Source: Agelas oroides (taxonomy: Eukaryota > Porifera > Demospongiae > Agelasida > Agelasidae). From it: a DNA stretch of 64,000 bases. This document shows positions 1-61,779 of the stretch, piece by piece. The stretch is taken from the NCBI GenBank assembly GCA_949130485.1, contig OX422188.1:2937722-3001721 (forward strand), in the 5' to 3' direction. The notes beneath the pieces were generated by a model, which searched no databases, had not been told where the DNA came from, and worked only from the letters and a program-made list of their open reading frames with translations. How positions within the stretch are numbered: the first letter of the stretch is position 1; each line of letters opens with the position of its first letter. The position numbers and the translations under genes were made by a program.

Positions 1-498
1 TTACTGGACTACAAAGCATAATGAAAGCATAATGAGATAGTTTCAAAACCACAATAAGCAATGAAGCACAGCATAAATATGATAATGAGGAGCATAATAT
101 ATGCTGTACATATGCAGTTACATCTCTGGAGAACGTTCTTGTTATGTTGGATAACTTCCTGTTCAGAGACTCTAAGTTAACACAAAAGTTATGTCATTCC
201 TCTCCTATATATAGTTAGCAGCAGCAAATTGACAATAGCTTCAATTCCAATATACAAGTGCCTGCTGTTTTGTAACACGATGCTGCTACTGTTTATTGGT
301 TCAACACACAATTGTTTCATGAAGCACATTACATGTAATTGTTTAAGCAGGAAGTGTAATGTCTGGTGAGACAGTGACCTAACATGAAAGCAAAGTGTTT
401 GCTTTTGGGGAGGTTAGTGAATCTTTAGCTTTTGGATAGGGAAAGTGACAGAAACGACCTGTGAATGAGGCTAGATAACATTATGTGACATGTTAGAG
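1..498. other. No recognisable gene
   Basis: AT-rich sequence ahead of the first recognised transporter exon. Probably intron of the same gene. No convincing exon seen. Confidence 0.4.
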
Positions 499-3400: not shown

Positions 3401-6400
3401 GTCCACGCAATTGCGAAGATTTGCACTCATCGAAAATTTCCCACTATACAGTAACTGTCCGAAACATTCGATAATCGGCTTAGAATCATGTCATTTTAGA
3501 TACAGATTCCTGTTGCAGTTCACTTTCTGAAGCAAATCTTTTTGCACTGTTGGGGAGCTACAAGACCCTGCTTCTACACACCTGATATTCGCTTGTTTGG
3601 ATACAGAGGGATGTTGCTGAAATTTTGAGAGGGTTGTTCCCTCAAAGATCAGACAGTAAACTTGCACATTTTTTCACTGTTGGACACTCCAGCTACCCAT
3701 TAGGCCTACGATACTGGCATCATTGAAATGTACAGGTCCTTGAGCTGGTTCATATGTGAACAGTGCAAAAAGAACAACGAAAAACTTTAAAAGTTCACTG
3801 TCCAGGGAGTGATCCTCTCAACATTTGAGCAATACCCCTCAGCACCCAAACAAACTACAAGTGACAAATATCAAGCATGCAGAGCAGGATCTTTTGGCAC
3901 CCCAACAGTGCAAAACTGAAGAAAGAGAGTTGCTTCAGAGAGGGAAACATCCGAAAATACATGATTTTTAACCAATTATCGAACAGTTATGTTAATCATA
4001 TGCAGCGCAAGCAGGAATTGACGCTGAAGCTCCAATTTTCAGCTGTCAGAGACGGTGGACTTAGTCTCCATTTATATGGTAAAACCAAGTATCTGCATGG
4101 CTTAGTTCTCCATGTACAGTTAAGCGTCTGACTGTTGGTGGTGTCTAAGTATTGATCACTTACTCTACATATTGTATAGCATAATAATATAGGTTGTATT
4201 CACCTTGTATTTAATGTCATATACACTTTCAACAGTAAATTATGGCTGTCAGTTCTAGCCTGTACACTTCTTGGAGCAGGGTGGTCACTTGCAATTGTAC
4301 CCACCTATTTGGCTATGATTGAGACTGCAAAGTAAGCAACATATTGTATACCACATCATGGGTACTATCTTTACTAATGTTGAGTGTGTCTACTACCCAC
4401 CTAGTAATTCCAGGATATTACACGAAGAGGCAGCAGCTATTATAGGTACACTTTCTGGGATTCTTGTTGGAGGTCTTTCTGCAGGGTAAGGAATTTCTAT
4501 AGTTTATTGGGTAATTCTTGTGTACTAGAAAACAGTTAATATTGAGCACTGAACAATAGCACAGAAATCAGTTAAGAATGTCATGCAGAATTTTGTTGCG
4601 ACAAACAATGCAAGAAGCAGTAAAAAAAAAACTTGTGCAGAACTGAGCCTATCATTGTAATGTAAAATATTTTATTGCATGTTCATATCAGCATAATTAT
4701 CCTTAATGGGTGGTTGGCTGCTGTACATTGCACACGTTCATCACAATCAATTTGCTATTTACAAACATGTTTATTATCTCATTTGCAGAGAGTGTTTAGG
4801 ACCTATCATTGGTGGAGCACTTGTTTACAGAGTGGGCTTCCGAACAATGACAGCAGTAAGGCGTATTGGTGTACCTAAGCCTGTTATATTGATGTTAACA
4901 GTAAAACATCACCCAGATGAAGTATAAATACGTGTCTTTTGCATGCTCAGTAGTGTTTGAGTACTCATGCAATGTTGTGGCCACTCATGCTATGTGGTGG
5001 TTTTAGCCTCATTCCGAGGCCTTTGCCACCTCCAATATTTGACTGCTTTCAGCATGTGGCTGATGTTCATTGAAGTAATGTTGCTAAAGTACAGTATCAG
5101 CTAGCTACATGTGTTGATCACGTTGGAGCAGGGTCATGGCTCATGCTTACAAGACTAGGAGAGTTTTCAAGATGTGAACACATGCTAGATAACATGACCA
5201 TGATTATGGAGGTGAGGGGGGAAGCCATCATTGTTCACAAATTAGCCACAACTGGACAAGGACCGTGACCTTTCATTTTTGTTATGTGTCAAGGCACCAA
5301 TATACAGAACAAAATAGCATTCTACAGGGCCGTAGCCATCAAATTTGGAGTGGTCAGGTTAGTGGTACGTGCGTAAGCACGCAACAGCTAGGGGGGTCTG
5401 GGGGCATGCCCCCCCAGAAATTTTTGGAATTTAGAGGCTATGAGGTTGCTTCTGAGACCATTTTTGGGCCAAAACAATGCTTCTCGGAGGCCAGACGACA
5501 GAGTTTTACATGCATAAACATCTACCCTTTCTGCCCGTTGCGCCATATAGCACTGCATGGTTTCGGCTTTCCGATCGTTCGCCAATCTCACAAGCCACAC
5601 CCTTCGCAGATCGTTCGGTAGGAAGAACGGAAAATTGTTGGAAGACTTGGTCATTCGCACTGTTTGCAGCCATCTCGTACTATGTTGCAGCATGTCACCA
5701 CGCTGTGTGCGTGCCATGGGCGTTTGCCGAGCATTGGCCCTATTTGGCGACGCCAAGCAAGCCATGGGTAAGGGAAAAAGTGGTCCGGTTGAAACCGGAC
5801 TAACCAGACGGGTGGCTATGGCCCTGTTCTATCCCAACAGGGACCTCAGAAGTGAGCTCAGAGCACCTTATTTTGTAAGAAAACATGCTCTCAGACTTTT
5901 CTACCTGCTGTGTTCTTGTGCACTCATTGCCACGTAGATGGCCTCACCACTTTGGAGATGCTTTCTTCACCGCAGGCAGTGCCCAACTGTCTCTTTGCAT
6001 ATTGATCACTGCCAAGTGTTTAACAAACAACAATAATTTGATGTTGGCAATACGTTCTGAACATTCAGGCCGCTGGCCACCAGTTCTCGGACTGACAAAA
6101 AAAGCCTCTAGATTCTTCATCAGGTAACGCTCTCCATATGTTTACCTTCTGTTTACCCAACGTAACCGCATGTAATGAGATCTGCCAGGCCTCCCCTCCT
6201 TACTTGCATACTGAAAGCAATCAAATACATTGTAGATCTACTTGAAGCAAAAGAGGCCTGGGAACAAGGCTGCTGTGCTTTCACATGATAAGTGTATATC
6301 ACTGTGCATGTGTACTCATGCAATAGTTTACACTATCTTAATGCAGTAAGGATGATATCTATACCAATTAAGCCATAAACTAGCATGCTGTAGCCACGCT

Positions 6401-6645
6401 ACATCCATGAATGATTTCTGTTTCTCCTTGCAGATACTTGGTCTTATTGCCCTGGTATACGTAAGTCATGCAAAGTTAATTTAATCCTACCAATGGTAAC
6501 TGTAGTCAATCTGTGTTAGTCACTGCAAAACAGCCTTCTTTCACTGCAGGCCCTAGTATTGGTGACTGCAACAGTGATTCAGAGAGTTTGGAAGGAATGC
6601 TGGAAGTTTAACGGAAGTAACAAAAACAGTGAATGCTGTTGCTAA
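499..6645 (+). CDS. SLC18B1-like MFS transporter, 3' exons
   Basis: Seven exons join in phase: about 499-653, 897-985, 4236-4331, 4405-4485, 4789-4855, 6434-6460 (27 nt) and 6550-6645 (stop TAA). The product is mostly hydrophobic helices: LQFHLSVGIIGVIYF and PYGLLTDKL, then CLIIAGLVVSCIGFEFIGPA, LWLSVLACTLLGAGWSLAIV, IIGTLSGILVGGLSAG, GPIIGGALVYRVGF and a last helix ending in a Cys-rich tail. The loop DKL plus the GPA and GPIIGG motifs are those of the major facilitator superfamily, and the order resembles the C-terminal half of SLC18B1 (vesicular polyamine transporter type). The substrate is inferred only. Every junction keeps the frame (phases 0,2,2,2,0,0), so this part is intact. The N-terminal half should lie upstream of the window. 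The intron between 4855 and 6434 carries a transposon. Confidence 0.75.
2774..2856. repeat. Short near-perfect palindrome
   Basis: Arms starting TAGGTTGGACTAATAG and ending CTATTAGTCCAACCTA (allowing one indel) meet at GGTACCTGGTACC. The right arm contains an extra partial copy of the CATACAATGGAAC motif. Looks like a miniature foldback element. Confidence 0.8.
3420..4090. repeat. Old imperfect long inverted repeat
   Basis: The segment from about 3420 to 3665 reappears, reverse-complemented and diverged, at about 3780-4090. Shared blocks include GCACTGTTGGGG, ATTCGATAAT/ATCGAACAGT and CAGTGAAC. Consistent with an ancient foldback transposon or a decayed head-to-head duplication. Confidence 0.55.
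5325..5826. mobile_element. CAGGGCC-type DNA transposon, non-autonomous
   Basis: Begins CAGGGCCGTAGCCAT and ends with the inverted copy ATGGCTATGGCCCTG-like (GTGGCTATGGCCCTG). Directly flanked by TTCTA at 5320-5324 and 5827-5831, a 5-bp target duplication. The interior contains the G/C-run palindrome GGGGGCATGCCCCC. No transposase frame. A second copy of the family lies at 58691-58898. Confidence 0.8.
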
Positions 6646-8859
6646 TAGAGTCTGAACCACTAGCTAGAACTGCTTCTTCTGTTATTGCATTAAGATTCTG
6701 GCCAGAATATTAGAGACTTGGCTACCATGTGGCATGCCTGCATAAAAGATGCATATTGAATTCCACCATTATCATGAAAATATTACTACAAACAAGAGAA
6801 TGGGCAAGTGGAAAACACTGAAATGCAGAATTGTAAGTATGGAAGTGAGAAGAAAAGCCACCTGTCAATGATTGCGCCTCGAATACAGAAATAGTAATAG
6901 TCAATGTGTGACATCCGTTTCAAAAACCTGTTGCACTGCCAGATGTACGGTAGTACGCCATATGTAGGGATGGCCCCGAAAAAAAATGGCGGCCACATTA
7001 AGGTAGGACAACCTTGAATCACAAATCTCCGAGTCATGTGGATGAGAATCGAAGGCCTGGGAATGAGGCGATAATGGTGCTATCATCACAATATATTGAG
7101 ATGCTCGCATAATTTTAGAAGAAAAGAAAAAGGAGAAAAGATTACCTTGTTGTTTCGGTAAGTATCATGAATGTCCCTATACTGCACTGTGCTGAACCAA
7201 ATCCATTTCTAGCAATGACCCTAAAGTAGTAGGTAGTCCCTGGGAGCAGAACATCCAAGACCAGTGTATGAGTTACGTTCACAACTGATATGTTCTGGTT
7301 CCCATCCACTGTGGTGCTAGTTTCATTAAGCATGTTTTTTCTGAGCCCAAACCGGACCATGTACTGTTTAGGAGTGTATGAGATGAGAGGCATAGTCCAT
7401 TGTATGATAGCAGATCTGGAGGACACATTGGCCACTGTGACATAGGTAGGTTGTGCTGGAGCCTGGGCAGCTGCAATAATACAACGATAATATGTCTAAT
7501 TCACCACTGCACTTCAGGTATCATGCTAATAATTGCCTAGCACCTTAGTATACAACTACTAGTGCACTGGTTAGTTCTCAGCCAATTTTCATCATCCCAC
7601 CTCCACCTGCTTAGGTGAGCTCAGTTGGTATGTACATATTGTGCATTGTCTCTCTAAGTGAGAATGTCTGATGTGGCAGCAGAGAGGCTAAGGAGAGTAT
7701 TGCCATGCTGATATGCTGATGCTGATATATGGCATGCTAATATGGTGATCCTGATATCCCAGGATAGTGATGCTATACTATAGCAAGAAAAGTGGCCTAT
7801 TAAAATGGCAGAGACTGCCAGCAGAAGCAGTCAGCTCACCTGATCAACTCAAAGGCCTTCTTCATTGTGCGTGAGACATACTATACACGTGTATTCCAAG
7901 CTATGATAGAAGCAATTAATGAGATGTACTCAGTGTCCTACCTCTGACAGTCACATTTGCTGAACTAATGGTTGGCGCATTGAGATTTATGTTAATGATC
8001 AAGGTTCTGTTGCCATTTGATGATACATTCATCTCCTGCATGCCCACCAAAGTGCACTTTCCAGTGAAATGTTTTTGGAACAAGTATGGTATCATACACA
8101 CTGGCAGTGCAGTTCAGTGTGAACGTGTTGTACGGAGGTGTCACAAAGGCTGTGACTGTATGTGGCTGCACGCACGCTCACACCAACTACAGGTCCTGTA
8201 GATGAGAAGCAAGATGGTTCAAACCAATTAAGTAGAAACATGCAATGCCAAAAATGCATCTCAACATGTACAAAAGAAGCAATGACCAATTGTGCGTATA
8301 ATCATCTACAGCATACTTATCAGATAAGTATCACAGTCTGTAAGTACTCACTGTCAACAATAAGGTACCATTCAGCAGACTTGGTCAGTTGCTGTGGAGG
8401 GGTGGGGCTGGTAATGTTTGCTCTGCAAGTAAATTCTCCACGGAAAACACGGTAGTGGGCTAAACACCAGAGCAAGAGTGGTCATGGTACCTGATGTCAT
8501 TGCACTACCCACTGTAATATCTCCCCCAGTTGTGACTCGATTACCAGTTTCATCCAGCCACTCAACTATTGGTACATTCTGCAGACCATCAACAGTTCTG
8601 ACAGTACAGGTCATGTTGAACATTTGTCCAGCTAGTATGGATGCATTGCTTGTACTGGTCGAAATTGTAAAGTCGACTGCATTTGTAAGAAGCAGGAACA
8701 ATATTCTGAAGCAGAGCAAATAGCTAGATTTTGGTGTTATGCCAGTGTGCAACTGCAAATGTGCAGTTTCCCTTGTGAATTTTACCTGTACTGTACCATT
8801 GGTTGTGTAGCTATCTATGTACCCCACTTTTTATACAAAAAACCTCTCTCAATCTCATG

Positions 8860-9251
8860 TATAGACCTTATTCAGGGGGTGTGGCTTCAAGGTTAGCAAC
8901 CGCTATTTATGTTGCCATGGTAACACCAATTTTATATGACAATTCTTACAGTCCAAATTACTCAAATCTCAAATATGAAAGTTATCGGCCTTATGGTTGA
9001 TTTTTTAAAAATCATCAAACTTTGACTGTTAAGTCTATGGTGAGTGGCAAAAAGTTGCCACTCACCATAGAACTCAATACTTAAATGCCAGTTTGACAAT
9101 TTGTTTAAAATCAACCATAAGGCCGACAACTTTCATATTTGAGATTTGAGTCATTTGGACTATAAGAATTGTCATATAAAATTGGTGTTACCATGACAAC
9201 ATAAATAGTGGTTGCTAACCTTGAAGCCACACCCCCTGAATAAGGTCTATA
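8860..9251. repeat. 392-bp full-length palindromic MITE
   Basis: TATAGACCTTATTCAGGGGG at the left is mirrored by CCCCCTGAATAAGGTCTATA at the right, and the arms continue to a centre near 9055 (GGTGAGTGGCAA / TTGCCACTCACC). The terminal TA pairs (8860-8861, 9250-9251) fit a TA target duplication. A few mismatches separate the arms. Confidence 0.85.
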
Positions 9252-9736
9252 GTTTAAATATTCACCTAGACTAAAACCCATATATACCCCTCTCCAAAGA
9301 GGAAAGGGAGGTGTGGCAAATGTATACACAACATGGTCTAGCTGATGTTAAATCGTAATCCTTTGAAGTTGCTTGCTGGACTTTAGTAAATTAGAAGTGT
9401 GCTATAGCTAAGTGGATAGTGTGGATTCGTAAAAGTAAAGCTGCAGTGAAGAAGCCCATGCACACAATAGAGGTGAGATAATTGCCAAATCAGCCAATCA
9501 GGTCATGTACTGAAATTCTGCTATACCCACAAAATGTTGTACTACATTTACAAGACCCCCCTTTCTGGGTTTGAGACTAATATTTGCCTTAATAATTATA
9601 TCAATTTGATACCAGAACAAATTACTACTAAGTATGTATGGCAGCCATTCCACTATCATACTTTATCGTACAGTTCTGTAATAGAAGAACAGCTAGCTCT
9701 GTTGATACTTGATGCAGCTACTTAAACCTACCTTCA
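9252..9736. other. Remainder of Ig-gene intron
   Basis: No exon recognised except the last five bases (9732-9736), which with the donor GTAGGT on the minus strand are the displaced end of the Ig exon at 19293-19535. Confidence 0.5.
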
Positions 9737-9749
9737 CACTGCAAAAACA

Positions 9750-10440
9750 AAATTGTCAATTTGACAAAAAAAAAAGTGTTATGGTAATGAATCTCAGGTA
9801 ACAAATGAATATTGTGTTGAAACAACAAACAACACAATGTGTTGTATTAACTAACAAAGTGTTCAATTCAACACATAAAAATATGTGGCAAGAACACATT
9901 TATTTGCCAAACTCAATAATGAAATTGTAGAAACAACATTGCTTTGTAAAGTGTTGTTTGCAATTGTAACAATAGTATTTGTTGTTTTATAAACACATTC
10001 ATGTGGATACCACAAAACATGGTATGTTGTTATAACTGAACAGTTGTTAAAAACAATTACTTTGAGTTGTATTTACTAATAGAATATTGTCGTAACAACA
10101 CATGAATTTGCCAAACTTACTAACAAAAATTGTAGAAACAACATAACCTTTGTTAAGTGTTGTTTGCAATTGTAACAATGAAATTTGTCATTAATAAAAA
10201 TGTATATGTGGACACCACATAATAAACTATGTTCTTATGACTGAACAGTTGTTAAACTACAATTGCTTTGTAACATGGATATTTGTAATTTCAACAAAAC
10301 TTCCTGTAACTTTATAAGCACATGTATGTGAACATTACATAACATACTGTCATTATCACTGAGGCTTTGTCAGTTATTACTGCAATGCATTTGCTAAACC
10401 ACACAATACAGATTCGCTATATTGATAAATCACTTTGTAT
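9750..10440. repeat. Left subterminal tandem repeat of the CACTA element
   Basis: A unit of about 205 bp recurs. The block AAATTGTAGAAACAACAT is at about 9923 and 10128, each followed by GTGTTGTTTGCAATTGTAAC, an ATGTGGA..CCACA stretch and CTGAACAGTTGTTAAA. Very rich in AACAA/TTGTT words, likely binding sites for the element's own protein. Confidence 0.75.
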
Positions 10441-10730
10441 CTACACATGTACATACTAACTGTAAGTTGTCTTAACGTGTTTATGAAGTGTTTTTTTTGC
10501 TATATCTGAAAATTGAAGAATCAACTTTAATGGACATGTACAACGTACAAATCAGAGAACACCAGAGCACACTGGCGTGTACCATTGAAAAGTAACACCA
10601 GTATAAGAAAACCCATTGGTATACTGATACATTGTAGTATACAGCTCAGGAAACACAACCATGCACGTAGTATATAAATGCCAAAAATAAGCATGAAAGA
10701 ATGTTTTGTACTTGGGAATCAAGGAAAGTT
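10441..10730. other. 3' flank of the SAMD3-like gene
   Basis: AT-rich sequence between the left subterminal repeats and the SAMD3-like stop codon. Presumably 3' UTR and terminator of the minus-strand gene. No separate feature seen. Confidence 0.4.
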
Positions 10731-11442
10731 CTAGTCGTCCTTCGAATTCCTCGCAAGAGTCTCGTGCATGCGTGAAATTCCACTGAAGTGGGTAAGGTTT
10801 GAGGGATGGCGCTTAGTGCCTGCCTTAGATGGTACACCCAGAACTTTTTCTTGAATAAACACCCACACGTCACCTGTTTTTGTGTGGTAGGAGAGGTTGA
10901 AAATGTAGTGAGCTGCTATGCAGAAGAATACGGATGCCACGATAGTCGACGTCTCCAAAATCAGGCCTTGCTCTACTGAAATGAAGTGCTGCTCTGCCAA
11001 GCAATCTTCGTCCTCTTCGTCAGAGAACAGAACCATGTGTGGTTGGTTGTTACCCTTCTCCATGGCATCTGCAGGTGGAGTGCCGCGCTACAGCGACAAG
11101 AAAGAGGAAATTAATGACATTGTGTATCATTTATATGAAGCAAGAAAAGTTAATCTGTCAATTGCCTCCTATTTTAATTCAAGTTCATAAGCAGCAAAAA
11201 GCAGTAAGTGAAGGTGTTTGTACACCTTTTAAACCTGTCAATGTCACTACTAATGATAACAGCACCTTTCCATGCAATTTTGGGTACACAAGAATCATTG
11301 GCATATCCTTACAGGCACAATCTTGAGGACGTATGGAATACTGGATGATTCCAACTTCTTCGTCTTCATGGGTGCAAATAGCAACATCAGGCAACGTAGC
11401 GCCATGTGTACACAACGATCTGCAATGAACATAATCACGTCA

Positions 11443-11475
<33 letters not shown>

Positions 11476-13045
11476 ACCACCACCACCACCAACTTCACAT
11501 GTTCAGGTGTGGATTAAATGGAACAGCTTCCTATACATGTAACTTAGCCATAAACAGACCTGTCAACCTACAGATTTGCCTCATTGTCACATGCCTGTAA
11601 ATCGTCCCCACCATAAGGTGACTCACAACCAGACCTTCACTGATGAGTACCCTTTGAACTAAGTTCCTTACATATAATTTGGCAGTTCGAAGCTGACACT
11701 GAAATGTGAGCCTCGAGTGTCGGAATGATAATAGCAGCATACACAGCATTCGAAGCACTCAGATAAATATATGTGTGCATATACTAGCTGTTACGTACAA
11801 GCATTGCAAGTAAGATACTAAGCTGTTGGAATTATATGCATGTAAGACTGAAGGTCAGTCACTTACCATGAGAAATGGCTAGCTATCTTGTTGTTAGACC
11901 GTGAGAAACACCAGCCTTGTCCCAAGGCCTCCACAGACTACTTTGTCGCACCCTTGTACGAATAAGTGGCTAGGCCTGGTCAATTTCATGGTGTAAACAT
12001 TACGTAAGGTCTTAAGGTAGACACGGTTTATTTTAGGTACGGTAACGTACATTTGTGGCTGACGATCGTGGCAAGGATGGCTTGAAAAGGACATGAATCG
12101 ATATCGATGAGCAAATAAGTTGCAAGCACCGTTCAGCAATAACACGAGGTAGCTACTGCGATTGCACGCTATAAGTGCACGTTAAAGTAAGCGGTGTCTA
12201 CCTTACGTAATGTTTACGTTACAGAATCATACCAGGTTGCGACAAAGAAGTCTGGGGAGGCTAGGGACGAGGCTAGAGGAACACATTGAAACCATGTACC
12301 ACACAACAAATTCTTGAGAGTTGACAAGTCTGCATGAAAAGCTTGTGACATACCTTCTGGCAGATCGTCAGTGTAGCTGGCGGTCTCTTCCTGCAGTGCT
12401 GACGATTTGATTTGTGTGTTCTTGCAGTACATGATGACAGCTCTCACCCACAGAGGAAACTGCTCCTCGAACGTTTCCCGAATGTTTTCCTTATCGCACA
12501 CAAGAGCGAAGTCCAAAGCAGCCTAAATCAAGATGTGCAAGAAAGTATGTGGATCGATACAAAAAATAAAAGAGTGACTACGATTTTACTCACGTAAGTA
12601 GCTTTCTTGAGCAACGGAAAGTCCACAATATATTCTGATAGGGTTGATGGCTCGGACTTGGTGACATATCCATCCCACCGGTTTGGAAAGGTGCGGCGCA
12701 TCAGCTCCTTCAAGACATCTGAAGAGGGTTTTGCCTTTTCCGTCTCCGCTTTTAGCAAGTCTAAGTTACGCTGATATGACACGTCATCATCAGCATGCAC
12801 AGGAGGATAGAAATGCGCCCCTCGGCCATCTAGCTTTTGTCGCTTTCGAGGAGGCCCATCGGTTTTCTGAGTTTTGCGATTCACGTTCTGGGTCCGATAG
12901 TAGATAAACCACTTCCAGGAGTTCTATACAAGCAAGAACAATTAAACTATCAAGTTACATGTGCTGGTACAGCAAGCTCCCTAGTAGTAATCACTTAGCA
13001 ATAACCTTGTTTGTATACTCAAGACACACACACATGCGCATGCAT

Positions 13046-13101
<56 letters not shown>

Positions 13102-14409
13102 ACACACACGTGCACACACACAAGTACAAACAACCTATGTACTTACTTCGCCATCTCCCTCGTCATCGTTCAAGAAATTGAACTTTTCCACCAAACTTAG
13201 TGCCACAACTTCACAGTCAGCAAGGGATGGGCGCTGGATATGCGTCATGAGGACCGTGGCCAAAGTTTGCACCATGTAACGTCTATCAGTGTCAGTCAAA
13301 CACTTCTCCTTCAAGTTGTCCTCAGTCTCTTGCCGAAACTTCGGTATTTGGAAAGGATGGGTGAGTGAACTCACCAGCTGTGTTCAAACAAAGGGACTGT
13401 GAGTATAGTAATTTCCAAGCTATACCTTAAACATTATAATATAGCTACGTACCTTTCTGTTAGGTGTTGAAGTCGATCCCTTTGAGCGAACTGACCCACT
13501 CTTCAAGCTACCACCAAGAGACACCTGAAGGCACCGCAAAACCAGAAAAAGCAATGACACTAATATTCTTCCACTCCCATGTACCTACAAAAGCAGAAAA
13601 CCTTAGATTGGCATAGCACTTGCCCACTTGCATGAAATGCTATGCAGATCAGTTCAACCTCTTCAGGGAACATTATTAATGCCTACCTGTGCCTGCTAAA
13701 ACTTGCACTGCTAACAAAACCACACAATGTAAACAACACGTCAACATCAAAGTCTGCTGGCAAGGAAGTTACAAGCCAATTGCTTTGCTAAAAAGTTCAC
13801 TGAGAGTTGACTCACTGTTGAAGCTGTTGGGCTTCGAAGGCTACTGCCTTCACCAGAGGACAGTGGACTAAGCTCACGAGCGGCCTGTGACAAACCAAAG
13901 TTGGGCTCCGGGGAAGACAGCTGGAAAAAAGCAACAAAAAAAATGACCATGTAAAGCCTGCTGCTAAACTAGGGACACTAAAGGGAGCAAACTGAGCTAA
14001 CCTCGCCAGCAGCATTCCAGGATCGCAAAGCATTGTGCACCTTCAACCTTAGACCTAGTGCAGGTACCACATCCTTCAGCCAATCTGGACTAGGGGTTGT
14101 GCCAAGTCCAAAGGCAATAGCACTGCCGTCCAGATCTTGTTCTGAACAAAGGTCATGCACAAAGGTCACATACGGTTTTATAATCCTTGTCCAGACACAA
14201 CTTAAGTTAACTACAGCAAAATACTTTTTTTTTTTGCATGTTTCCTTACCTCTGAAGGTGCTGACAACCGAGTCAGGAAATCCTTCATCCTCCAGCCATT
14301 CACAGACTTCGTCCAACGACTTGCCCTCGAGACGGCTCGTCATCCCGACTTGAACAAACGTCTTGTGCTTGTAGATGGGATGCCCAGAATCCTGGTCCTG
14401 AGTCGCCAC
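10731..14409 (-). CDS. SAMD3-like SAM-domain protein encoded by the transposon
   Basis: Nine exons join without a frame break: 14409-14250, 14141-14002, 13920-13816, 13524-13453, 13377-13147, 12923-12594, 12522-12354, 11419-11313, 11087-10731. The sum is 1671 nt, 556 residues plus stop. An N-terminal SAM-like domain (about residues 28-95; SLDEVCEWLEDEGFPDSVV, DLDGSAIAFGL) is followed by a Ser-rich linker. Next comes the conserved block of sterile alpha motif domain-containing protein 3-like proteins (YMVQTLATVLMTHIQRPS, FLNDDEGDGE, SWKWFIYYRTQNVNRK, SYQRNLDLLK), and a C-terminal block ending FNLSYHTKTGDVWVFIQEK. It lies head to head with the transposase, 269 bp apart and inside the same TIRs. 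An accessory, repeat-binding role like plant TnpA is inference. Function of the family is unknown to me. Confidence 0.82.
11446..11491. repeat. (CA)n then (CCA)n microsatellite
   Basis: CACACA run followed by ACC trinucleotides, in the intron before exon 8 of the SAMD3-like gene. Confidence 0.9.
13023..13121. repeat. (CA)n microsatellite
   Basis: Long CA run with a few interruptions, inside the intron between exons 5 and 6 of the SAMD3-like gene, just downstream of the exon 5 donor (minus strand). Confidence 0.9.
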
Positions 14410-14678
14410 ACGTTCGACAAACGCTGAAGTGCACGGAGGAATCGAGGATAGAAGTTTGACCGCGTTCTAACTCCTGGCGCCAAGTTCTGCACGGAGCTTT
14501 TAATAGCCAGCCAGCTGCACGTGGCGCCAAAATATCAAAGTTGAACTTTCACCCTGTGAGTCTGAGATAATGAAGTGTGCTCTAATAGGAAGATATGCGC
14601 TTGCCTCTGTAGTCTCTGTCTGAGAACGAGAGGAGACGCGTTTACATGTGAGAGTCAGAGAAGGATCCGGATTAAAAG
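14410..14678. promoter_or_regulatory. Bidirectional promoter region of the transposon
   Basis: The 269 bp between the two start codons must carry the promoters of both divergent genes. A CACGTG E-box is at 14518-14523. No convincing TATA box was identified. Confidence 0.5.
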
Positions 14679-17600
14679 ATGTTGTTCTCCTGTACGTTCT
14701 GTACCTTCCGCTGCAATCTTCGACTAGATCTGATAAAACATCTATTTGGTTCGCACTCAATGGAACCCAGATTTCTGTATCTTTGTGGAATCAAAGGATG
14801 CCCGCACACGTTCAAGTATGGCTCTACGTTCTCTTCATTTAAGACACATGCAAGTCGAAAGCACCCAAACTGGCAGGATCATGTGAACCAAAATAATGAT
14901 GGTGTAGCAGTGGTCTCAGGTCTGGAGCCTAGGCCTGGACCTGTTGCAGACTCCTCAGCTCCTGGTGTTGGGCCCAGTGCAAATAGTGCAGAGATGGAGC
15001 CAGATCCGCATGCCGAATCATTTGAACCTGACTTACACTGTGATACTAACACTGAAACGCCACCAAGTTCCTCAACCAAGAAGGCTGCTGCATTGTTCAT
15101 TCTAACCTTCCAGGAACGGTACAAGTTATCCCAAAAGGCGATCAACTTTGCGGTAGGCACTGTTGACGCAATTGTTGATAGTGCCTGCGAAGCAATTCAC
15201 AGTTCCCTTCAAAAGAGGTATCCTGCCGCTGACATAGCTGAATGCTTTGACAATCGCGAAAGTCCATTTACTGATCTTGATACAGAGTATATGCAATCTA
15301 AGTATTACAAGCAAGAGTTCGGATTAGTGGTAAGTGTGTCATGTGTTCCTGCAATATTTTGCATGCAAATTGGATACCATGCCTAGCTAAAGCAATCCCT
15401 GTCGCAACTCACTGGCTATAATACTCCCTACACAGGAGCCTGTAACCGTGACATTGGGCACAACATATGAATATGAGAGGAGAGGAACAAAGCGCCGGCT
15501 TGTGGAGAAGGCTCATACATTCCAGTATATCCCTCTGATTGAGAACCTTCAGTGGATATTACAAAATACAGAAGTGTATCAGGAGGTATGACAATGACAT
15601 GGTTATAATAATGAAATATTATGCATAATGTACAGCAAGACCAAAGTAAGGCTAACAAAAAAGAAGAGAAGAAACACTTTAAAAATTACACATGCAAAAA
15701 CTAATGAAAACAACACAAGCACAAACAAAAGTACCATGAAAAAAAAAACAAAGAAAACAAATTAAGTAGGGATATCCCACAAAGGATTGTCCATGTTACT
15801 TGTCAAGTTATTATATTTTTTTTACTGTAGGTTTTCAAGGAACGGCCCTCCACTCCAAGTGGGTACTTATATGATTTTTGTGATGGTGAGACCTTCAAGC
15901 AACATCCTTTGTTCAGTACCGAAAATGATGCTTTGCAAATAGTAATATATTACGATGAAGTTGAAACAGCAAACCCACTTGGTTCCTATCGTGGAAAACA
16001 CAAATTAGGTATGCAATTTGTGTATGAGTTTGCTAGGTATGTCACATTTATCCTCTTGTCACGTTGCTTGTACAGGTATGTTTTACTACCTGTTGGGAAA
16101 TATTACGCCCAACTTGCGATCAACTCTAAAGGGTATACAGCTGATAGCCTGTGTTACTACAGAGAACCTGGAGAAATACGGCTTTGAAATGGTTCTGACA
16201 CCATTTATCAAAGATGCCAATGCCCTTTCAAATGTGAGCAAAATTGATGTTTTTAGGCTGCATGCTGACAGTGCATTCTGGCCACAGGGTGTTGTCATGA
16301 CGATCAGAAGTGTGCAAAAGACTGTGAAAGGTGCAGTTCTGTTTGCACTGGCTGATACATTGGCTGCACACAGCATGGGAGGTTTTAAGGTTGGAGTAGG
16401 CTTCTCCTTGCGCAAGTGCAGGATGTGCCTTGCTACTGCAGATCAATTGTCGACTAAGGTTAGCTGGCTAGATTATAGTCTGGCACCCACACACGTTTCT
16501 TGGGTGGGGTAATATGCAGTTCCCTGCATGAGTCTACTGTGGCTTGCATAAATCGAAGTGTACCATTTTCTTGCAGTTCCGGGCTAGAGACTTCACCATG
16601 CGAACACCTGAAACGTATGATTACCATTGTGCACTACTCGACGGGCCTTTGTCGTATGAGGATTCAGTGACATATGGTGTCAACTTCTACAGTCCATTGA
16701 ATTGTCTTGACAACTTTCACGTTGTTACCCAGTTACCACAAGATATAATGCATATCTTGCTGGAAGGTGTCATTCCATATGAGCTTTCATTTTTGCTTAC
16801 GTACTTCATTGTGAACCAAAAGTACTTCACACTTGATCACCTCAATGACAGCATATCTTGCTATGACTACTCTGTTCAAGAAGCAAATGACAAGCCTTCT
16901 CCAGTACGACCTCAAGTCATTTCGTCGAGAGGTGCACGTTTGAGTGAAACATGTAAGTTCTTGAATGCATGCAATCTTCAACGCCACATGCAACACTCAT
17001 GTTTCTTTCTTTCTTTACGTATAGCTGCACAGATGTGGAATTTAGCAACTAACCTTCCTTTGATGATTAGTAGCAAGATACCAGTGGATGACGAGCACTG
17101 GGAGTGCTTTTTGCTTCTTCTTGACATACTGCAGTTGTGCACAACAAGATTTGCATCAGCTGGCCAAGCAGGATACTTGGAAGCCCTCATTCATGACCAT
17201 CACCACCTATTTACTCGATGTTATCCTGATGCTAACATAACTCCAAAAATGCATTATATGGTGCATTTTCCTCGCCAGATTATTCGGTAAGATGTCCTGC
17301 ATTATACAGCCTATCATCTGCTTGTAATTGACTATACATGTATTATTCCAATGAAATGCATAGGACCGGGCCCCTGATCACTACGTGGTGCATGCGTATG
17401 GAAGGCAAAAACTCCTACTTCAAGCGAATCGCCCAAATCAGCAATTTCAAGAATGTGCCATACACAGTTGCGAAAAGACATCAACGCCTCCTGTGTGCGT
17501 ATCTACATGGTGGTGTGTTCTTTGATACCGAAGTTGAATGTGGTCCAGGTACATGTACACACATTGTCTGCATGCACTAAATCACTCAGTATACTGATAG

Positions 17601-18144
17601 TAACATACATATTTTTTACCAAGTAGCTAAAGCTGCCAAGCAACTGTGTGTTGAGGATCCAGACATTATTACCAAGCTGAATGAGATCACAGGGAACAGT
17701 TCACATTCAACTGCTTTGGTACACAGGTGAGATCCTTGAATGCTCTATAGTAGGCCTCTGTGTCTAATGTACTTACAACCTATCTCCTTGTTTTCCTTGT
17801 TTTCCCCATGTATATACATCAGACCTAGATGGATCGTCCACATGGGTGTTAAGTACACATTTACGGAGTATGTCCTTATTGGATGGCAAGATGACGATCT
17901 ACCGGCTTTTGGACAGATTCAGTGCATTGTTGTCATGGATAGCATAGTATTATTCAAAGTCACAAAGTACCACACACTTGGCATTGACCGACACTTCCAC
18001 AGCTATGTGATCAGCAGGAGCAATGGAGTAGAACTCTGTTCACTCTCAGAGCTAGTCGACTATCACCCCTTTCGGGCTCACAACTTGAATGGTCATCAAT
18101 ACATCACATTCCGCTCTCATATTGAAAATGTACTTGGTGTATGA
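14679..18144 (+). CDS. CACTA/EnSpm-like transposase with C2H2 zinc fingers
   Basis: Nine exons join in phase: 14679-15329, 15436-15585, 15831-16008, 16076-16458, 16577-16952, 17025-17286, 17364-17548, 17627-17726, 17823-18144. The sum is 2607 nt, 868 residues plus stop. Two N-terminal zinc-finger patterns are visible (C5-C8-H21-H26 and C36-C41-H57-H62). The core has IYYDEVETANPLG (Asp309), a NITPNLRS block, ALADTLAAHSMGGF (Asp420), the RKCRMC cysteine pair, QDIMHILLEGV, and late MHYMVHFPRQIIR..GPLITTWCMRMEGKNSYFK. This succession, including the late GPL..W...E block, resembles Tnp2-type transposases (Transposase_21 family). The 72-nt intron 16953-17024 is divisible by three and lacks stops, so naive ORF calling reads through it. 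The assignment rests on motif memory. The role as mobiliser of 9737-19292 is inferred from position. Confidence 0.75.
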
Positions 18145-18600
18145 GTTTTGTGTCTATTCTACTAATTGCCACAGCATGTGCTTAGTGAACTATGGGATGG
18201 CTTGAATTGTGCTTAACCTCTGATGCAATATGTTGTTTCCTGTGGCTTTGCTTGGGGACTGTATATATGTGAGGGATTACAAGAGTAAACATTGGCGTAC
18301 GTCATGAAGTGTGTCACAACATTAAGCGTAGTTTTGTGCAATACATCATTATGAGCCTTTTATTGAGATGGACTTTTTATTCGGGCAACATTAATCATAG
18401 CATAATAATAATATATCTACACTGGTAACTTAAATTAACTGACACCAATCAACCTCTGTAATGTTCACATTGTAAGGTTATGCAAAAACAACAATGAATT
18501 TATAATGCAAAATAAACCTTGCCGATGCTGTATACTAACAAACCCTAGCAAATACAACCTCAATGTGTTTATACTTAACAACAATAATTTGTAAATACCA
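18145..18600. other. 3' flank of the transposase gene
   Basis: AT-rich DNA with many AACAA words between the stop codon and the right subterminal repeat. AATAAA is present near 18511. No gene seen. Confidence 0.5.
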
Positions 18601-18609
18601 CCGACATCA

Positions 18610-19292
18610 GTGTGAAAACAACACAAAGTTTGCTTGAAAAACAAACTGTTATTTCAACACTGCTATTGGCTTATCTAACAATTTGCTTTGCCGTTTTAAC
18701 AAATGTGAGTACATACAACTGGTCTGTGTTGTGTTGGCAGCATTGTCTGTGTAATACACTAACACCTGTGTGGAAACAGCATACAATTGTTATAATCACA
18801 TTGTCATTTCTATATTTACATTTTGTTACAGCAACAATTTTTGTTAGAGGAACAAATTGCTAATTTAACAAGGCCATTTGTCATCTAAATTTTTGGTTTT
18901 GTCATTTCAACAAATATAAGTACATATAACTAGTCTGTGTTATGTTGGCAGCATTGTCAGTGTAATGCACTAACACCTATGTAAAAACAGCATACATTTG
19001 TTATAATCACATTGTAATTGCTATACTTACATTTTGTTACCGTAACAATTTTTGTTAGAAGAACAAATTGTTACTTCAACAATGCTATTTGTCCTCTAAA
19101 GATGGTTTATGTAGTATTAACAAATGTGAGTACATACAACTTGTCTGTGTTGTGTTAGCAGCACTGTTTGCAAAATGAGCTCACAGTTGTGTGGAAGTGA
19201 CAGACGATTGTGATAATCACGTTGTTATTGCTATAATTACATTATGTTACCATAACAATTTTTGTTAAAATAACAAAACTATTTTTGCAGTG
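18610..19292. repeat. Right subterminal tandem repeat of the CACTA element
   Basis: About three copies of a 210-211-bp unit. AAATGTGAGTACATACAACT begins at 18701, with its variants at 18912 and 19122. Each is followed by GTCTGTGTTGTGTT, a ..CACTAACACC.. stretch, ATAATCACATTG and TAACAATTTTTGTTA. A partial copy precedes the first full one, and the terminal inverted repeat follows the last. Confidence 0.85.
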
Positions 19293-20319
19293 CAGCAGTG
19301 ACAGTAATAGTCTGCTGTTGAGCACCATATGTACTGGTGACTCGGCAAGTGTATTGTCTGTTGTGGATGGTGTCATTGACTGGATTAAACAGCAGCTGTG
19401 TCTGGGGACCAGTGGAGCTCTGAACCACTCCCCCATTGTACAGCCACTCTGTCATGGTTACATCCAGGTCAGAGGAGCAGGTAAGTGTGGCTGCTCTACC
19501 AACAATCAGCACATCTGGCATTGTAACCTGCAGACCTGAGTTCAGAATATTCAGATAGAGAGAGATAATTGGGGGAATTATACAGAAAATGGATCACAGG
19601 ATATATACAAGAGTGTACATGGGAGACAGGTTAAAGGAAGGAATAAATGATTGCTGGGACAAATGTTACATAAAAATGGAATGGATGAAGTAGCTAACCA
19701 TGAAAGGCATGCAGAACACTCACCATTAATTGTAATATTCCTTGTCACTGTTCCAATCTCATTCAGAATGCTACACAAGTAAACACCAAGAAGCGCACTT
19801 GGAGTACCACTGACAACCAATATATTCTCGTAGGTTGCAGTTACCCCATCTTGCAGTGTCTGTGTCATCTCATACTGTCCTCCACTGCTGAGCACCATTT
19901 CATCTCTCCTCCATGTCACAGTGGTGGCAGGAGAACCCGTGAAAGTGCAGTTCAGAGTGAAGTTTGGTGAGTGCCCCATACGTGGTGCGTTGCAGTGAGA
20001 CAAACTGACACAGGAGCTACAGAATGAGTACAGAAGACATAAATTGTCATAGACAACTAGCCACCTGACTGCATTTTGCGCATGAGATGGCAGTCACCGT
20101 CTCCCGGTCACCCCAGCACATCTGATGAGGCCTGGTATTGGCTGAAATGTGTCCTGCGCAGTGGGTGGCTTTGCATAACACCTTATACAGTGCAGACTTT
20201 GCAACCTAACAAGTTATAAACCCTCAATCTAATTTATGTCTGAGAATCACTAATGCACAGTCATATTATGTCTGGACTCTGCAGGTGCTGGTTTGTGGGG
20301 GACAACTCAACCTATCTCA

Positions 20320-20566
20320 AACAACAGTGCACTGATTGCTGACTCAGATTGGCACAATATACTGCCATTCTGCATCAGAGCAACCCCACATAGGCCGCTG
20401 GATCTCTCCAGCTGGAAATGGCATCACATTTACCTCAACAGATGCATGCGTTTGATGTTGGCCTACATAGTGGGTCATTCCACAGTTACACCACCAGTCT
20501 TACAATATCAAATGGTTTCTCACTGTTGGGTGCTGACCAGGGAGTGCATGCATGCATGACTGCAAA
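20320..20566 (+). pseudogene. Relic Ig-type exon
   Basis: In shifted frames the plus strand reads GRWISPAGNGITFTSTDA and then SYTTSLTISNGFSLLGADQG ending in VHAC, the W...L...D.G.Y.C skeleton of sponge Ig domains. A stop (GTT TGA near 20451) and at least one frameshift separate the halves. The exon end runs straight into a sequence identical to the CACTA terminal repeat. Confidence 0.5.
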
Positions 20567-20600
20567 AACAAAATTGTTGTTTTAGCAAACTATTTGGATA
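20566..20600 (+). mobile_element. Second CACTA-family terminus
   Basis: ACTGCAAAAACAAAATTGTT matches the left end of the 9.56-kb element over its first 18 bases but lacks the leading C. The other end was not found, so this may be a solo or broken copy. Confidence 0.5.
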
Positions 20601-20601
20601 C

Positions 20602-20895
20602 TACAGTTGCGTAACTATCCTTCCAATGCTAATCAGTGCTTGTAAAATATCTATAGTAGGGTTTACTCAAGTATCAACTACCATGCATTACCGTACAGTT
20701 GTGTGACTATCCTTCTCATGCTAATTTAGTGCTTACTCAAGTATCCTCAAGTATCAACTCCCACTGAATCATTACTGTATACAGTTGTATGACCGTCCTC
20801 ATGCTAATCCAAAACAGTGAAGTGCTTTTGAAACAGCTGGAGGGCTAGTTCAAGAATCAGCTCCCACTGAACTACAGTTGTGTGACTATTCAAGT
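20602..20895. repeat. Minisatellite, about 85-95 bp unit
   Basis: TACAGTTGTGTGACTATCC-like starts at about 20603, 20695, 20780 and 20874, each followed by CATGCTAAT..AGTGCTT and then ACTCAAGTATCAACTCCCACTGAA-like text. Diverged copies with internal deletions. Confidence 0.7.
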
Positions 20896-21218
20896 TGCAG
20901 ATGAATGAACACACTACATGCATGCATGGGACAGAGCTAAGAGACACAATGGGGCAACTATATGGAGGAGTTGGGCAAGAATGCGGAAAACACATTAGCA
21001 ACATATTTACCTACTCATCTGCATTGGAAATAAATAAACAGATGGGCAGCCACCTGATGCAGATGGGTAAGCATATAGTGGATGGCTGGCAGGGAGTGAT
21101 ATTCCACATTCTTGACCATCTCCCACCACATACTCATACAGACTTAGCACTAAGCTGTGTCCATGTATGTATATAACATGTTTCATCTGCAACTCAACTA
21201 ACAATTTTACTGTGCAAC

Positions 21219-21236
21219 ACACACACACACACAGAG

Positions 21237-21312
<76 letters not shown>
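21219..21312. repeat. (AC)n/(TG)n microsatellite
   Basis: A short CA run, then ATATA and a long TG run, giving hairpin potential. Confidence 0.95.
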
Positions 21313-21313
<1 letters not shown>

Positions 21314-21402
21314 TGTACAGTAAAATTGTTAGTTGCAACTTATCGGGGGTCATAGGCCGCCCCCTACCGTTGCAACTGACCAACCAAATCCCCTTAGATA
21401 TA

Positions 21403-22168
21403 CAGTAAAACCTCCGAACAAAGGACACATTGGGGACGGGGCATTTGTCCCTTGTAGAGAGGTTGTCCTCTTCTCGGAGGTTTTCTTTTAAACCTATTGG
21501 AAAGTCATTAAAGACAAAACAACTAACACTTACAGGCTTTAAAATGTATTATTACAATATATTCTGTGCATATATTTTCATTTTCAATTGCAAGATGGCA
21601 AGAGCAATACTACTTGTATATTAAAGAAATGCAGAATGATGCAATTATGACGTGTATACAGTAAATACTCGATTGATATCTGTACGAAAGTTTTCGTTTG
21701 CGAGTACAGTGACCGCTCTGTATGCGGAATACGGAGGTATCCGTTATGGGCATTCGGTATACTTCCGGTAGGCGTGGTAATGTGTTAGGTCGCATTTTCG
21801 GACCGGTCCGTTGCTGTACCATGGCGAGAAAGGCTAGCAAGAAGAGCAACAGTGCTAATATAATTCCCAGTCTTTGAATCCAGCGATGGTGGCGCACAAT
21901 CTTACGAAAGCGGTCGACAAGCGTTCGCATTATGTATACAAGACTATTGGTGGGTGTAGTTTCACTGTCCGCTTTCGGAGGTAATTCTGTATTGGCTAAG
22001 GTACGTCTGGGGCTCATCAGTGTCCGTTGTTCGGAGTTGAGAGGTGTCCGTTTCTCGGAGGTTCGAAATGTATTAGTTCTATGGTAAAATCAATCGGGGG
22101 CAAGTGATCTGTCCGCTGTACAGAGGTTGTCCGCTTTTCGGAGGGTCCGTTATTAGAGGTTTTTACTG
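21403..22168. mobile_element. Pogo/Tigger-like non-autonomous transposon
   Basis: Starts CAGTAAAACCTCCGAACAAA and ends GAGGTTTTTACTG, flanked by TA on both sides (21401-21402, 22169-22170). The end type CAGT..AACCTC with a TA duplication is that of pogo/Tigger elements. Interior shows several repeats of GTCCGTT/CTCGGAGG. No transposase. A related copy lies at 37632-38057. Confidence 0.8.
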
Positions 22169-22496
22169 TAATTATTGATTCAGCTTGACACAGGCTTAAA
22201 AAAAAAAATTTGACTTGTATAGCTAGCTTTGTTAAATTTTCAGCTGCATGCATGCAGATGAAATTACATTACAATAACCGATGCTGCTAATTCCCAAGAT
22301 GGCATGGTCATGTGCTGGGAGACCGGTAAGAACGCGGAAAACAGGCGGAAGCAATGATGACTCCCACTTACCGTAGGCGCCGGACGCACTTCGAATTTGG
22401 GGGGGGCACAGTTGAAGCGCGGCGGCCGCTTAGCGGCCGTAGGGGAGGGGCGCAGGACGGGGTTTCCCCCTCCGGTGCGAAGCGCGGTAGCTCAGA

Positions 22497-22847
22497 GGGG
22501 TTCACTAAGTTCACCCAGCTCCATCTGGTGACGTCATAAACTGTAAACTTAATTTTGGTCATAGTAGGTAACAGGTTGCTCACAAGCTAGGGACGAGGTT
22601 TTTATACGAGTCCAGCATCAGCTACATAATTTTCTTGCTCTAAAATTAAGTTGCACAATCTCTTTGAACACAATACAGACTGGTGTTTTGTTGCTGCATG
22701 CCCTCCAGCAACATGTGCTACAAGTCTTTACCCTTCGCAGAGAGGTGTGGCTTGCGGGACTACATGTCTGGATGGCCTACATGGCGCTCTGCGCACATTA
22801 CAGTTTATGACGTCACCACATGGAGTTGGGTGAACTTAGTGAACCCC
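22497..22847. repeat. Inverted-repeat element with ~50-bp arms
   Basis: GGGGTTCACTAAGTTCACCC..TGACGTCATAAACTGTAA at the left is inverted at 22797-22847. The arms include a CRE-like TGACGTCA palindrome. The left flank (22395-22500) is unusually G-rich and CpG-rich. Full element limits not determined. Confidence 0.7.
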
Positions 22848-23219
22848 CGGCCCCCCGCTTCCGTCGCCTATGCTTACTCACTCGTATCTAAACCAGCACA
22901 GCATAGGCAGCCTATGTACAGTTCTGTTACAGATGATGATCACACCTGGAATGTTTACTGTGACTTAGACCAATATCCCATGCAGTATACTTGTGCCATC
23001 TCATGACAGGTACTCCATGCATATCATTCCAAAGTAGTGTTGCACTCCAAATGTAGATAGTAAAAAATACGTGAGGTTTTATAATATACATGGAAGCTGC
23101 ATGCGGGTAAGTTTTGTGCTCATCTGTAACAGAAGTATACAAAGCTTGCATATGTTATGCTGGTTTGAATGAGTAACTATACACGTATATATATAAATTA
23201 ATGCGCGCGAGCGCTAGCT

Positions 23220-23428
23220 CACAGTAAAAACGGACTGGTTGTTTTAACCACAGAGTGGTTACCTTGGTAGCATGGCTTATTTTGTATCAGAGGCTAAGGT
23301 ACAGTTTCCTTGTTGTTTCCTCCTCTTTTCCTTATTCCAGAATGAGGAAAAGAGGAGGAAACAGGCTGTCTTATAATGCAACCTGGGTAACCACTATGCA
23401 GTTAAAACAACCAATCTGTTTACAGTGA
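23220..23428. repeat. MITE with internal hairpin
   Basis: CACAGTAAAAACGGACTGGT..GTTTTAAC is mirrored by GTTAAAACAACCAATCTG..ACAGTG, and the middle (TTTCCTCCTCTTTTCCT / AGGAAAAGAGGAGGAAA) forms a second perfect hairpin. Confidence 0.75.
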
Positions 23429-23652
23429 TATAGATACCGTGTGGTATTTGTGGCGGTAACTATCATAGGGGAGGAGCATCCGTGTTGCCATTCTTAGCTC
23501 TTAGCGACATGCAAGCACAGCCTAATTGTTCACCTACGGTCGCAGAATATAAAATTTCTGGAGTCTACGCTAATTTCTATAGTTCACTGCATCCTAATAG
23601 AATTTACTTCCACCGTTCTTGGGCGGGGGACTCATGCAGTGTCAATTGCGGA

Positions 23653-24114
23653 ATGGCGCAAAAGAATCCTGGAAAAACATATCCCTCAAGGCATGCGGCT
23701 TATAGAGGAGCTAAGAGAGATGCTGGTATAGCGATGGACCACCCCGTGTTTATGAAGCATCCTGATAAAAAGGCAGGTAGACCCGGTATAGAATATGACG
23801 ATCCGGATCCTCGCCACATCAAATCTGGACAGGACCCCACATTTGGAAGGGAGGAGTACAATGTTGGGACCAGGAACAGTCCTCGCTATGTCGCAATTGA
23901 CGATCATCATGCAGGCCATGCCAATCCACGTTTTAAAGAGGAGCGGCCCCACATGCACGCAAGACCTGGAACGGGAGCTGATGGTCGTGACTACCGGCAT
24001 GGGACGGCTGGCGGAAGTGATCATCATTACTATGAAGAGAAAAAAAAAGAGGGTAGTGGATCTACCCCAAGTGGATCTAATCGTGGTGGAGGGTCAAAGC
24101 CAAGTAGTAGCTAA
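23653..24114 (+). CDS. Intronless ORF resembling a polymorphic-toxin C-terminal domain
   Basis: The frame is open from 23482, but the Met at 23653 best fits the conserved start, giving 153 residues. It reads PSRHAAYRGAKRDAGIAM, then Asp/His-rich stretches (DDHHAGHANPRF, RPHMHARPGTG, HHYYEE) and a low-complexity Gly/Ser tail. The order SR..A.R.AKRDAGI, a charged middle, then G.H..PHF/HMH and HHYY resembles a small His-rich C-terminal module I associate with bacterial secreted polymorphic toxins. This is recognition by pattern only. No intron, no signal peptide and no obvious neighbour gene. Alternatives: a lineage-specific animal gene, or an acquired bacterial gene kept for another role. Confidence 0.5.
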   Translation: MAQKNPGKTYPSRHAAYRGAKRDAGIAMDHPVFMKHPDKKAGRPGIEYDDPDPRHIKSGQDPTFGREEYNVGTRNSPRYVAIDDHHAGHANPRFKEERPHMHARPGTGADGRDYRHGTAGGSDHHYYEEKKKEGSGSTPSGSNRGGGSKPSSS

Positions 24115-24694
24115 TTGTGGAGTGTATTAAATAACGTTCTGAACTTTAATTGTGTACTTCCTTGCCATGTGACTTGATATTAGGTGACTTACGAATTGAC
24201 TGCAGCAGCTATGTTTTAACTGCCTGCTGATTGATACAGTAGGATTATTGGTGCATGCTCATTACTGGTTTGCTGCATAATTATGGCAGTGGGGAGGGAA
24301 GGAAATACTCAGTCAAAACAAGAGTGGTCTCATCAATTTTGTTATTTGAATGAGTGAACACATTACATACACTCCATGCATGTACATTGTGGGTGACTCT
24401 GCCTCCATAACATGCACAATTACAAATGCTACAAGAATAGAGTGGCTGCATAATGCATAGTGACACAGGATCTCAACTGACAATTCAGATCTCAGTCAAT
24501 GACAACATTATAATTCACTACAACCTGTATGTGTGCAGAGGGCATAGTGGCGTCAGTATACTGAATAGTCTCAATGTTACCACAATCGTGAATGGTGTAC
24601 ATATCATATAAATTTTGAAGGTATAACTTTGAGCACTCATGCAGAGAAGAAAACACCACCATGGAGAGGTAGGTGTGGCTGCCATTCTGAGCTA
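24115..24694. other. Intergenic, nothing recognised
   Basis: AT-rich. No exon, repeat unit or RNA gene identified between the small ORF and the next MITE. Confidence 0.5.
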
Positions 24695-24906
24695 CCTTAA
24701 TGTTACTTTTAATTGCGCGTACTAAATTTAGCGATTTTAGCAATCAGTCATTATCGCTAAAATAAGTACTCGCAATAATAAATTCATAATGTATGAATGT
24801 CATTATACTAAACTTTCTGTTAAAAAATGCTAAAATTAATACATGCTAAACGAGGCATATTCAAAATCGCTAAATTAAGTATGCGCAATTAAAAGTAACA
24901 TTAAGG
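24695..24906. repeat. 212-bp MITE with TA duplication
   Basis: CCTTAATGTTACTTTTAATT at the left is inverted as AATTAAAAGTAACATTAAGG at the right. TA sits at 24693-24694 and 24907-24908. The arms continue through TTTAGCGATTTT. Confidence 0.9.

Positions 24907-32402: not shown

Positions 32403-61779
<29,377 letters not shown>

Follow-up and report, generated by a model that had tools for sequence, protein, structure and literature searches.

Evidence for a young, structurally intact CACTA/EnSpm-type DNA transposon with a divergent SAM-domain partner gene

The window analysed here is the whole 64-kb stretch of DNA at C6:2937722-3001721, and the genome searched with it consists of 259 Mb in 141 contigs. 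The window contains a transposon of 9,556 bp (9737..19292), and these boundaries are given by an empty paralogous site that lacks exactly this stretch. The element starts with the terminal inverted repeat CACTGCAAAAA (9737..9747, plus strand) and ends with the terminal inverted repeat TTTTTGCAGTG (19282..19292, minus strand). These 11-bp inverted ends are perfect, and each sequence occurs only once in the window. The match continues more weakly to position ~9770 on the left side, and the longer inverted-end match is 34 bp in length and 79% complementary. The flanks CCTACCTTCA and CAGCAGTGAC give a 2-bp CA target-site duplication, of which the left copy (9735..9736) is located by the 2-bp overlap of the flanks and the empty site, and the right copy (19293..19294) by the empty site and the flank sequence. 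Subterminal tandem repeats are detected at 9893..10270 (1.8 copies of a 205-bp unit) and at 18687..19277 (2.8 copies of a 211-bp unit), both in end regions rich in TAACAA/TTGTTA. There are 26 occurrences of this hexamer in the 1.36 kb of end sequence and five in the 7.1 kb of gene sequence, and the shared hexamer count of 10 is attained only as the maximum among 200 first-order simulations. The excess is partly due to AT-richness and repetition. The end match and the repeat search confirm the CACTA-like inverted ends and the 205-bp and 211-bp subterminal repeats that an earlier note on this DNA had described. No Rfam family is matched in the 64-kb window at the gathering threshold.

Two genes lie head to head within the element. 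Both models were made by eye from reading frames and splice signals, and the genes are known from DNA alone. The SAM-domain partner gene (10731..14343, minus strand) has nine exons (14343-14250, 14141-14002, 13920-13816, 13524-13453, 13377-13147, 12923-12594, 12522-12354, 11419-11313 and 11087-10731), GT-AG introns and no internal stop, and encodes 534 amino acid residues. Thus, the divergent, spliced and open SAM-domain gene of the earlier note is recovered, except for its length of 556 codons. Exons 1 and 2 (14002..14343, minus strand) encode the N-terminal SAM domain, which is split by a phase-1 intron. Residues 1-78 match SAM_2 with 21.5 bits (cut-off 20.5), and the whole protein with 16.7 bits. 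Of five weak PDB matches of the N-terminal piece (E 0.05 to 1), four are to SAM domains. The word-based search for relatives of the SAM protein gives none at E<=1e-3 among 7,995 candidates scored, and the search with residues 140-380 gives none at E<=10 among 610 candidates. A resemblance of the partner to vertebrate SAMD3 may extend beyond the SAM domain. Intron 7 of the SAM gene contains a 335-bp stretch (11927-12261) between 35-nt inverted arms that are 86% complementary, which is possibly a nested miniature inverted-repeat transposable element. This stretch predates the present insertion, because parts of it occur in two other copies of the element (copies C and D, below). The two gene starts are separated by a divergent intergenic stretch of 335 bp (14344..14678), which is delimited by the gene starts, has counterparts in two related families (F and G, below) and is probably a shared promoter region.

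The transposase gene (14679..18144, plus strand) encodes 868 residues in nine exons (14679-15329, 15436-15585, 15831-16008, 16076-16458, 16577-16952, 17025-17286, 17364-17548, 17627-17726 and 17823-18144). All introns are GT-AG and the only stop is the terminal one, so that the spliced, open frame of 868 codons is reproduced. The signature residues are D309, D420, C441, C444, H656, H660 and E680, in which C(2)C and H(3-4)H lie between the second D and the E of a DDE site. The N-terminal region (14679..14880, plus strand) gives weak matches to C2H2-type zinc fingers. The C-terminal region encoded by exon 9 (17823..18144, plus strand) is predicted to fold into a BAH-like domain, with a predicted local distance difference test score (pLDDT) of 91 and matches to BAH domains. 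A RAG1-like fold is matched for the relative P0001 only, and the VIA lists allow folds other than the favoured one. The profile comparison proposed in the earlier note for the 868-residue protein is negative for Transposase_21: none of the 10 proteins compared matches this family at E<=10, with the limit that the HMMER filters discard most weak matches. DUF4218 is weakly matched by five of the 10 aligned proteins (best 0.036), and PF18759 by three of them (best E 7.8e-6), the window transposase not being one of the three. When viral contigs were scanned with alignment A1, the pattern was matched by 32 stretches, none of which encodes a relative.

The flanks of the element are duplicated without it on the same contig, ~254 kb away. 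The duplicate is 98.9% identical to window positions 5827-9736 (25 mismatches in 3,913 columns) and 98.6% identical to positions 19293-24696 (24 mismatches in 5,436 columns). The two flank matches overlap by exactly 2 bp in the duplicate, where the element is missing, and base-level alignment gives the empty site as TTCA|GCAG, with CA duplicated at the element. Farther from the site the duplicate is less similar, identity falling to 97.6% for positions 26-5324, with 84 mismatches in 5,319, and to 92.2% for positions 24747-25632. The element is likewise absent from three further paralogues (92, 92 and 88%), of which the 88% one has only 14 junction bases on the left side. Thus, the search for empty sites suggested in the earlier note yields an exact empty paralogue and three others. 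The insertion lies at the 3' end of a minus-strand immunoglobulin-domain exon (Pfam ig, 24.7 bits; cut-off 21.8), and the empty site encodes ...QTITVTAEG, after which comes a possible splice donor. Window positions 26-25632 and C6:3.202-3.217 Mb form a segmental duplication of an immunoglobulin-domain gene region, and the exon at the insertion site has at least three further paralogues, all on C6. The host duplicate beside the site gives a single inverted-repeat match only, at 88.8%. Because the duplicate is empty, the insertion is probably younger than the flank duplication, which corresponds to ~0.5% substitutions beside the site, barring gene conversion or clean excision. The element is recently inserted, and it may be active at present. 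The description of the element as complete and possibly recently active is therefore borne out by the empty site and the target duplication as far as completeness and youth are concerned, and present activity stays a possibility.

At least four other copies of the element (A, B, C and D) are detected, all on contig C2 and none of them complete; the copy counts come from DNA searches and are lower bounds. Copy C retains the left end together with portions of both genes, and starts within one base of the left end amid unrelated flanking DNA. Copy D also retains portions of both genes, in unchanged order, with a match spanning only element positions 397-8263. In copy A, portions of both genes are accompanied by the right repeats, whilst copy B runs from a point past the transposase stop as far as the region of the right end. 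A scan of copies A, B and C detects no perfect CACTGCAAAA end. Thus, the expectation that further copies share the ends is supported by the left end of copy C and the right subterminal repeats of A and B, while none of the four has both ends. The alternative named in the earlier note, single-copy host genes without repeats, is countered by these other copies of both genes. The non-coding divergence of the other copies from the window copy is 2.0-6.6%, and synonymous and nonsynonymous counts in the damaged copies give no signal of selection. Copies C (L004-L005) and D (L031-L032) are scrambled, with six of 14 and five of 17 blocks inverted, respectively, deletions between the blocks and block identities of 90-100%. 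None of the six blocks of copy A is inverted. These counts leave out one block of D, three right-end blocks of A, and copy B. Breakpoints are not shared among the copies (one close pair, against 2.0 under random placement), and TCCA is their most enriched tetramer (z 4.2, uncorrected for the number tried), the positions being imprecise since block ends were taken from blastn. A diverged locus, E, of which the transposase part was read, is enlarged by insertions; its first 10 kb contains no tandem repeats, and the next 10 kb contains four short rows.

The pairing of the two genes is repeated in the genome. Searches with three SAM exons give 12, 10 and 17 hits, and those with three transposase exons give 23, 26 and 47 hits, which, when joined at 15 kb, form 21 SAM loci and 58 transposase loci. 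A transposase locus lies within 20 kb of 14 of the 21 SAM loci, always in divergent order (14/14), as compared with ~1% per locus expected from a simple density estimate. The 14 pairs include the window and three partial copies that keep both genes, and copies within one family are not independent. The other ten pairs, when grouped by scores and identity, probably represent about seven further families, which would make about eight in all, ranging from near-identical to ~30% protein identity. Two of these families, F and G, were read through the junction of the two genes. In family F (C2:14.63 Mb), the transposase pieces are 34-65% and the SAM pieces 35-59% identical to those of the window, and one stop is present in SAM exon 6. 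Its N-terminus matches SAM_2 with 13.8 bits, under the cut-off. The right end TTTTTACAGTG of this family, with one mismatch, is suggestive, and a left-end candidate with two mismatches is within chance by a rough estimate. In family G (C2:13.29 Mb), the N-terminal pieces of the transposase are 37% and 27% identical and that of the SAM protein 38% (E 0.002); the exon-1 piece gives weak matches to Ish1 and SAP, not to SAM.

An alternative for the partner is that the transposon caught a host SAM-domain gene once and carries it as passenger cargo without a role in transposition. SAM domains are common host modules, and the lack of a selection signal between copies agrees with this explanation. Two counts weigh against a constant pairing: for seven of the 21 SAM loci, no transposase hit lies within 20 kb, and at the sensitivity used 44 of the 58 transposase loci lack a nearby SAM hit, the latter favouring passenger cargo. 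However, the divergent layout is retained in about eight families down to ~30% identity, the matched N-termini start 306 bp apart in family F and 358 bp apart in family G, as compared with 335 bp between the gene starts in the window, and the tblastn match of family F to the SAM domain is interrupted at the very residue of the phase-1 intron of the window gene. A single capture without function is improbable in view of these observations.

The ends, the 2-bp duplication of the target, the empty site, the open and spliced gene models, the catalytic and zinc-site residues and the head-to-head gene pair together identify the element, with high confidence, as a cut-and-paste DNA transposon of the CACTA/EnSpm-type (RAG1-fold) clade that is young and structurally intact. 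The complete CACTA-like element with a SAM-domain partner, as proposed in the earlier note, is supported by the empty site, the clade signature, the fold of the relative, the SAM domain and the conserved pairing. That the element is old and inactive, and survives by chance or is now domesticated, would agree with the low copy number and the damage in the other copies, but is very unlikely, because the flanks differ by only ~0.5% substitutions from the empty duplicate near the site and the terminal repeats and target duplication are intact. A KDZ-type element (Zisupton, Dileera, Kyakuja) would also have a large, multi-domain transposase with a partner gene, but the duplication is 2 bp here and 8 bp for Zisupton (PMC12730594), and the CxxC/HxxxH signature and the RAG1 fold of the relative point elsewhere. 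KDZ membership is very unlikely and is rejected on the 2-bp duplication and the RAG1-clade residues. Two host genes merely lying beside repeats, for which only the finding of a single complete copy speaks, are ruled out by the exact empty site with its 2-bp duplication, provided that this locus is correctly assembled, and three more empty paralogues, the dispersed repeated pairs and the transposase signature and fold argue in the same direction.

The CACTA/EnSpm-type assignment suggests how the element may transpose. Both genes would be expressed from the 335-bp divergent region. The N-terminal zinc fingers of the transposase would bind the element ends, perhaps by reading the subterminal repeats, and its D-D-E site would cut at CACTG and join the ends to a target with a 2-bp stagger. 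The C-terminal BAH-like domain may tether the complex to nucleosomes, a role that is somewhat doubtful. The SAM protein may bind either the transposase or the subterminal repeats with their many TAACAA hexamers, and SAM self-assembly may pull the two ends together, which is the task of TnpA in maize Spm; the case for this end-assembly role is evenly balanced. The SAM protein would then correspond to TnpA in function, though not necessarily in sequence. Contig C2, which holds 10% of the genome, contains 13 of the 21 SAM loci, ten of the 14 pairs and 23 of the 58 transposase loci (5.9 expected), and binomial figures overstate this clustering because the copies are not independent. The related loci on C2 lie at 6.2-22.9 Mb. 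Either targeting or the persistence of old copies in such a region may explain the clustering. A wider reading, which is unlikely, is that the element represents a distinct animal RAG1-fold lineage in which a divergent cassette of a BAH-fused transposase and a SAM assembly factor steers insertion to particular chromatin, and that vertebrate SAMD3 arose by domestication of the partner, much as RAG1 did from a Transib-type transposase. The chromatin steering is proposed because ten of 14 pairs sit on this one contig.

Elsewhere in the window, a 226-residue open frame with a low-complexity C-terminus (23434-24114) matches no family of Pfam or NCBIfam at E<=0.1. Another open frame (30539-31075) gives a terminal weak match to the end of a tyrosine-kinase domain, with 16.4 bits against a cut-off of 23.1, and a 202-bp unit is repeated 2.1 times at 51072-51493 with 95% matches.

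The element is an intact young CACTA-type element in an apparently animal genome, and its empty site is known, so that neither the structure of its ends nor its target duplication has to be guessed. Two of its parts are unusual, namely the conserved SAM partner and the BAH-like reader on a transposase of RAG1 fold, and they provide a testable model for end assembly and chromatin choice, a question common to the evolution of RAG1/RAG2. Should SAMD3 derive from the partner, this would be one more case of domestication. Among the papers listed, titles, abstract starts and term counts give no report of a SAM pairing with a CACTA-type transposase or of a BAH domain in a CACTA/EnSpm transposase, and similar families may exist in Repbase; titles and abstract starts of the listed papers give none that links SAMD3 with such transposons.

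The CACTA/EnSpm-type (CMCT) clade is defined by 5'-CA...TG-3' termini, a target duplication of 2-5 bp and a DDE site with C(2)C and H(3-4)H (PMC12730594). The window element has CACTG...CAGTG termini, a CA duplication and the DDE and zinc residues, and the RAG1-like fold is found on the relative P0001 only. Animal CACTA-type elements with 2-bp duplications are already known (PMC1636069, PMC4298943). SmTRC1 and Spongebob (TRC/CACTA) are of this kind, and SmTRC1 has tandem repeats, but both start with CCC, SmTRC1 has Transposase_21, and a SAM partner is not mentioned for them in the available sections of these papers. Plavaka of fungi shares the wider clade and has 2-3 bp duplications, and three of the 10 aligned proteins, not including the window transposase, match its PF18759; however, its ends are TGT or CATCA (PMC12730594), unlike CACTG. 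Plavaka membership is rejected on the ends. Plant CACTA elements have CAC...GTG ends, two proteins and a 3-bp target duplication, and their second open reading frame aids excision and transposition in specific families (PMC4158355). In maize Spm, the element proteins TnpA and TnpD interact and are both required (PMC1636069). The window element differs from plant CACTA/EnSpm elements in its 2-bp duplication instead of 3 bp, CACTG instead of CACTA, no Transposase_21 match, the divergent SAM partner and the BAH-like C-terminus. Membership of the plant Tnp2 type is rejected on the ends, the 2-bp duplication and the lack of a Transposase_21 match at E<=10, most weak matches being discarded by the HMMER filters. 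The window element is similar to plant En/Spm of the Tnp2 type in its CAC...GTG ends, two proteins and DDE site with CxxC and HxxxH, and also in its subterminal repeats, which plant CACTA elements possess. Transib and RAG1-RAG2 share with it the RAG1-type fold (in the relative) and the C(2)C/H(3-4)H motif, but produce a 5-bp target duplication, as compared with 2 bp here. RAG2 is a kelch-PHD protein with a PHD chromatin reader, so that a chromatin reader, putative in the window element, belongs to both systems. In RAG1-RAG2, the reader belongs to the kelch-PHD partner, whereas in the window element the putative reader is fused to the transposase and the partner is a SAM protein.
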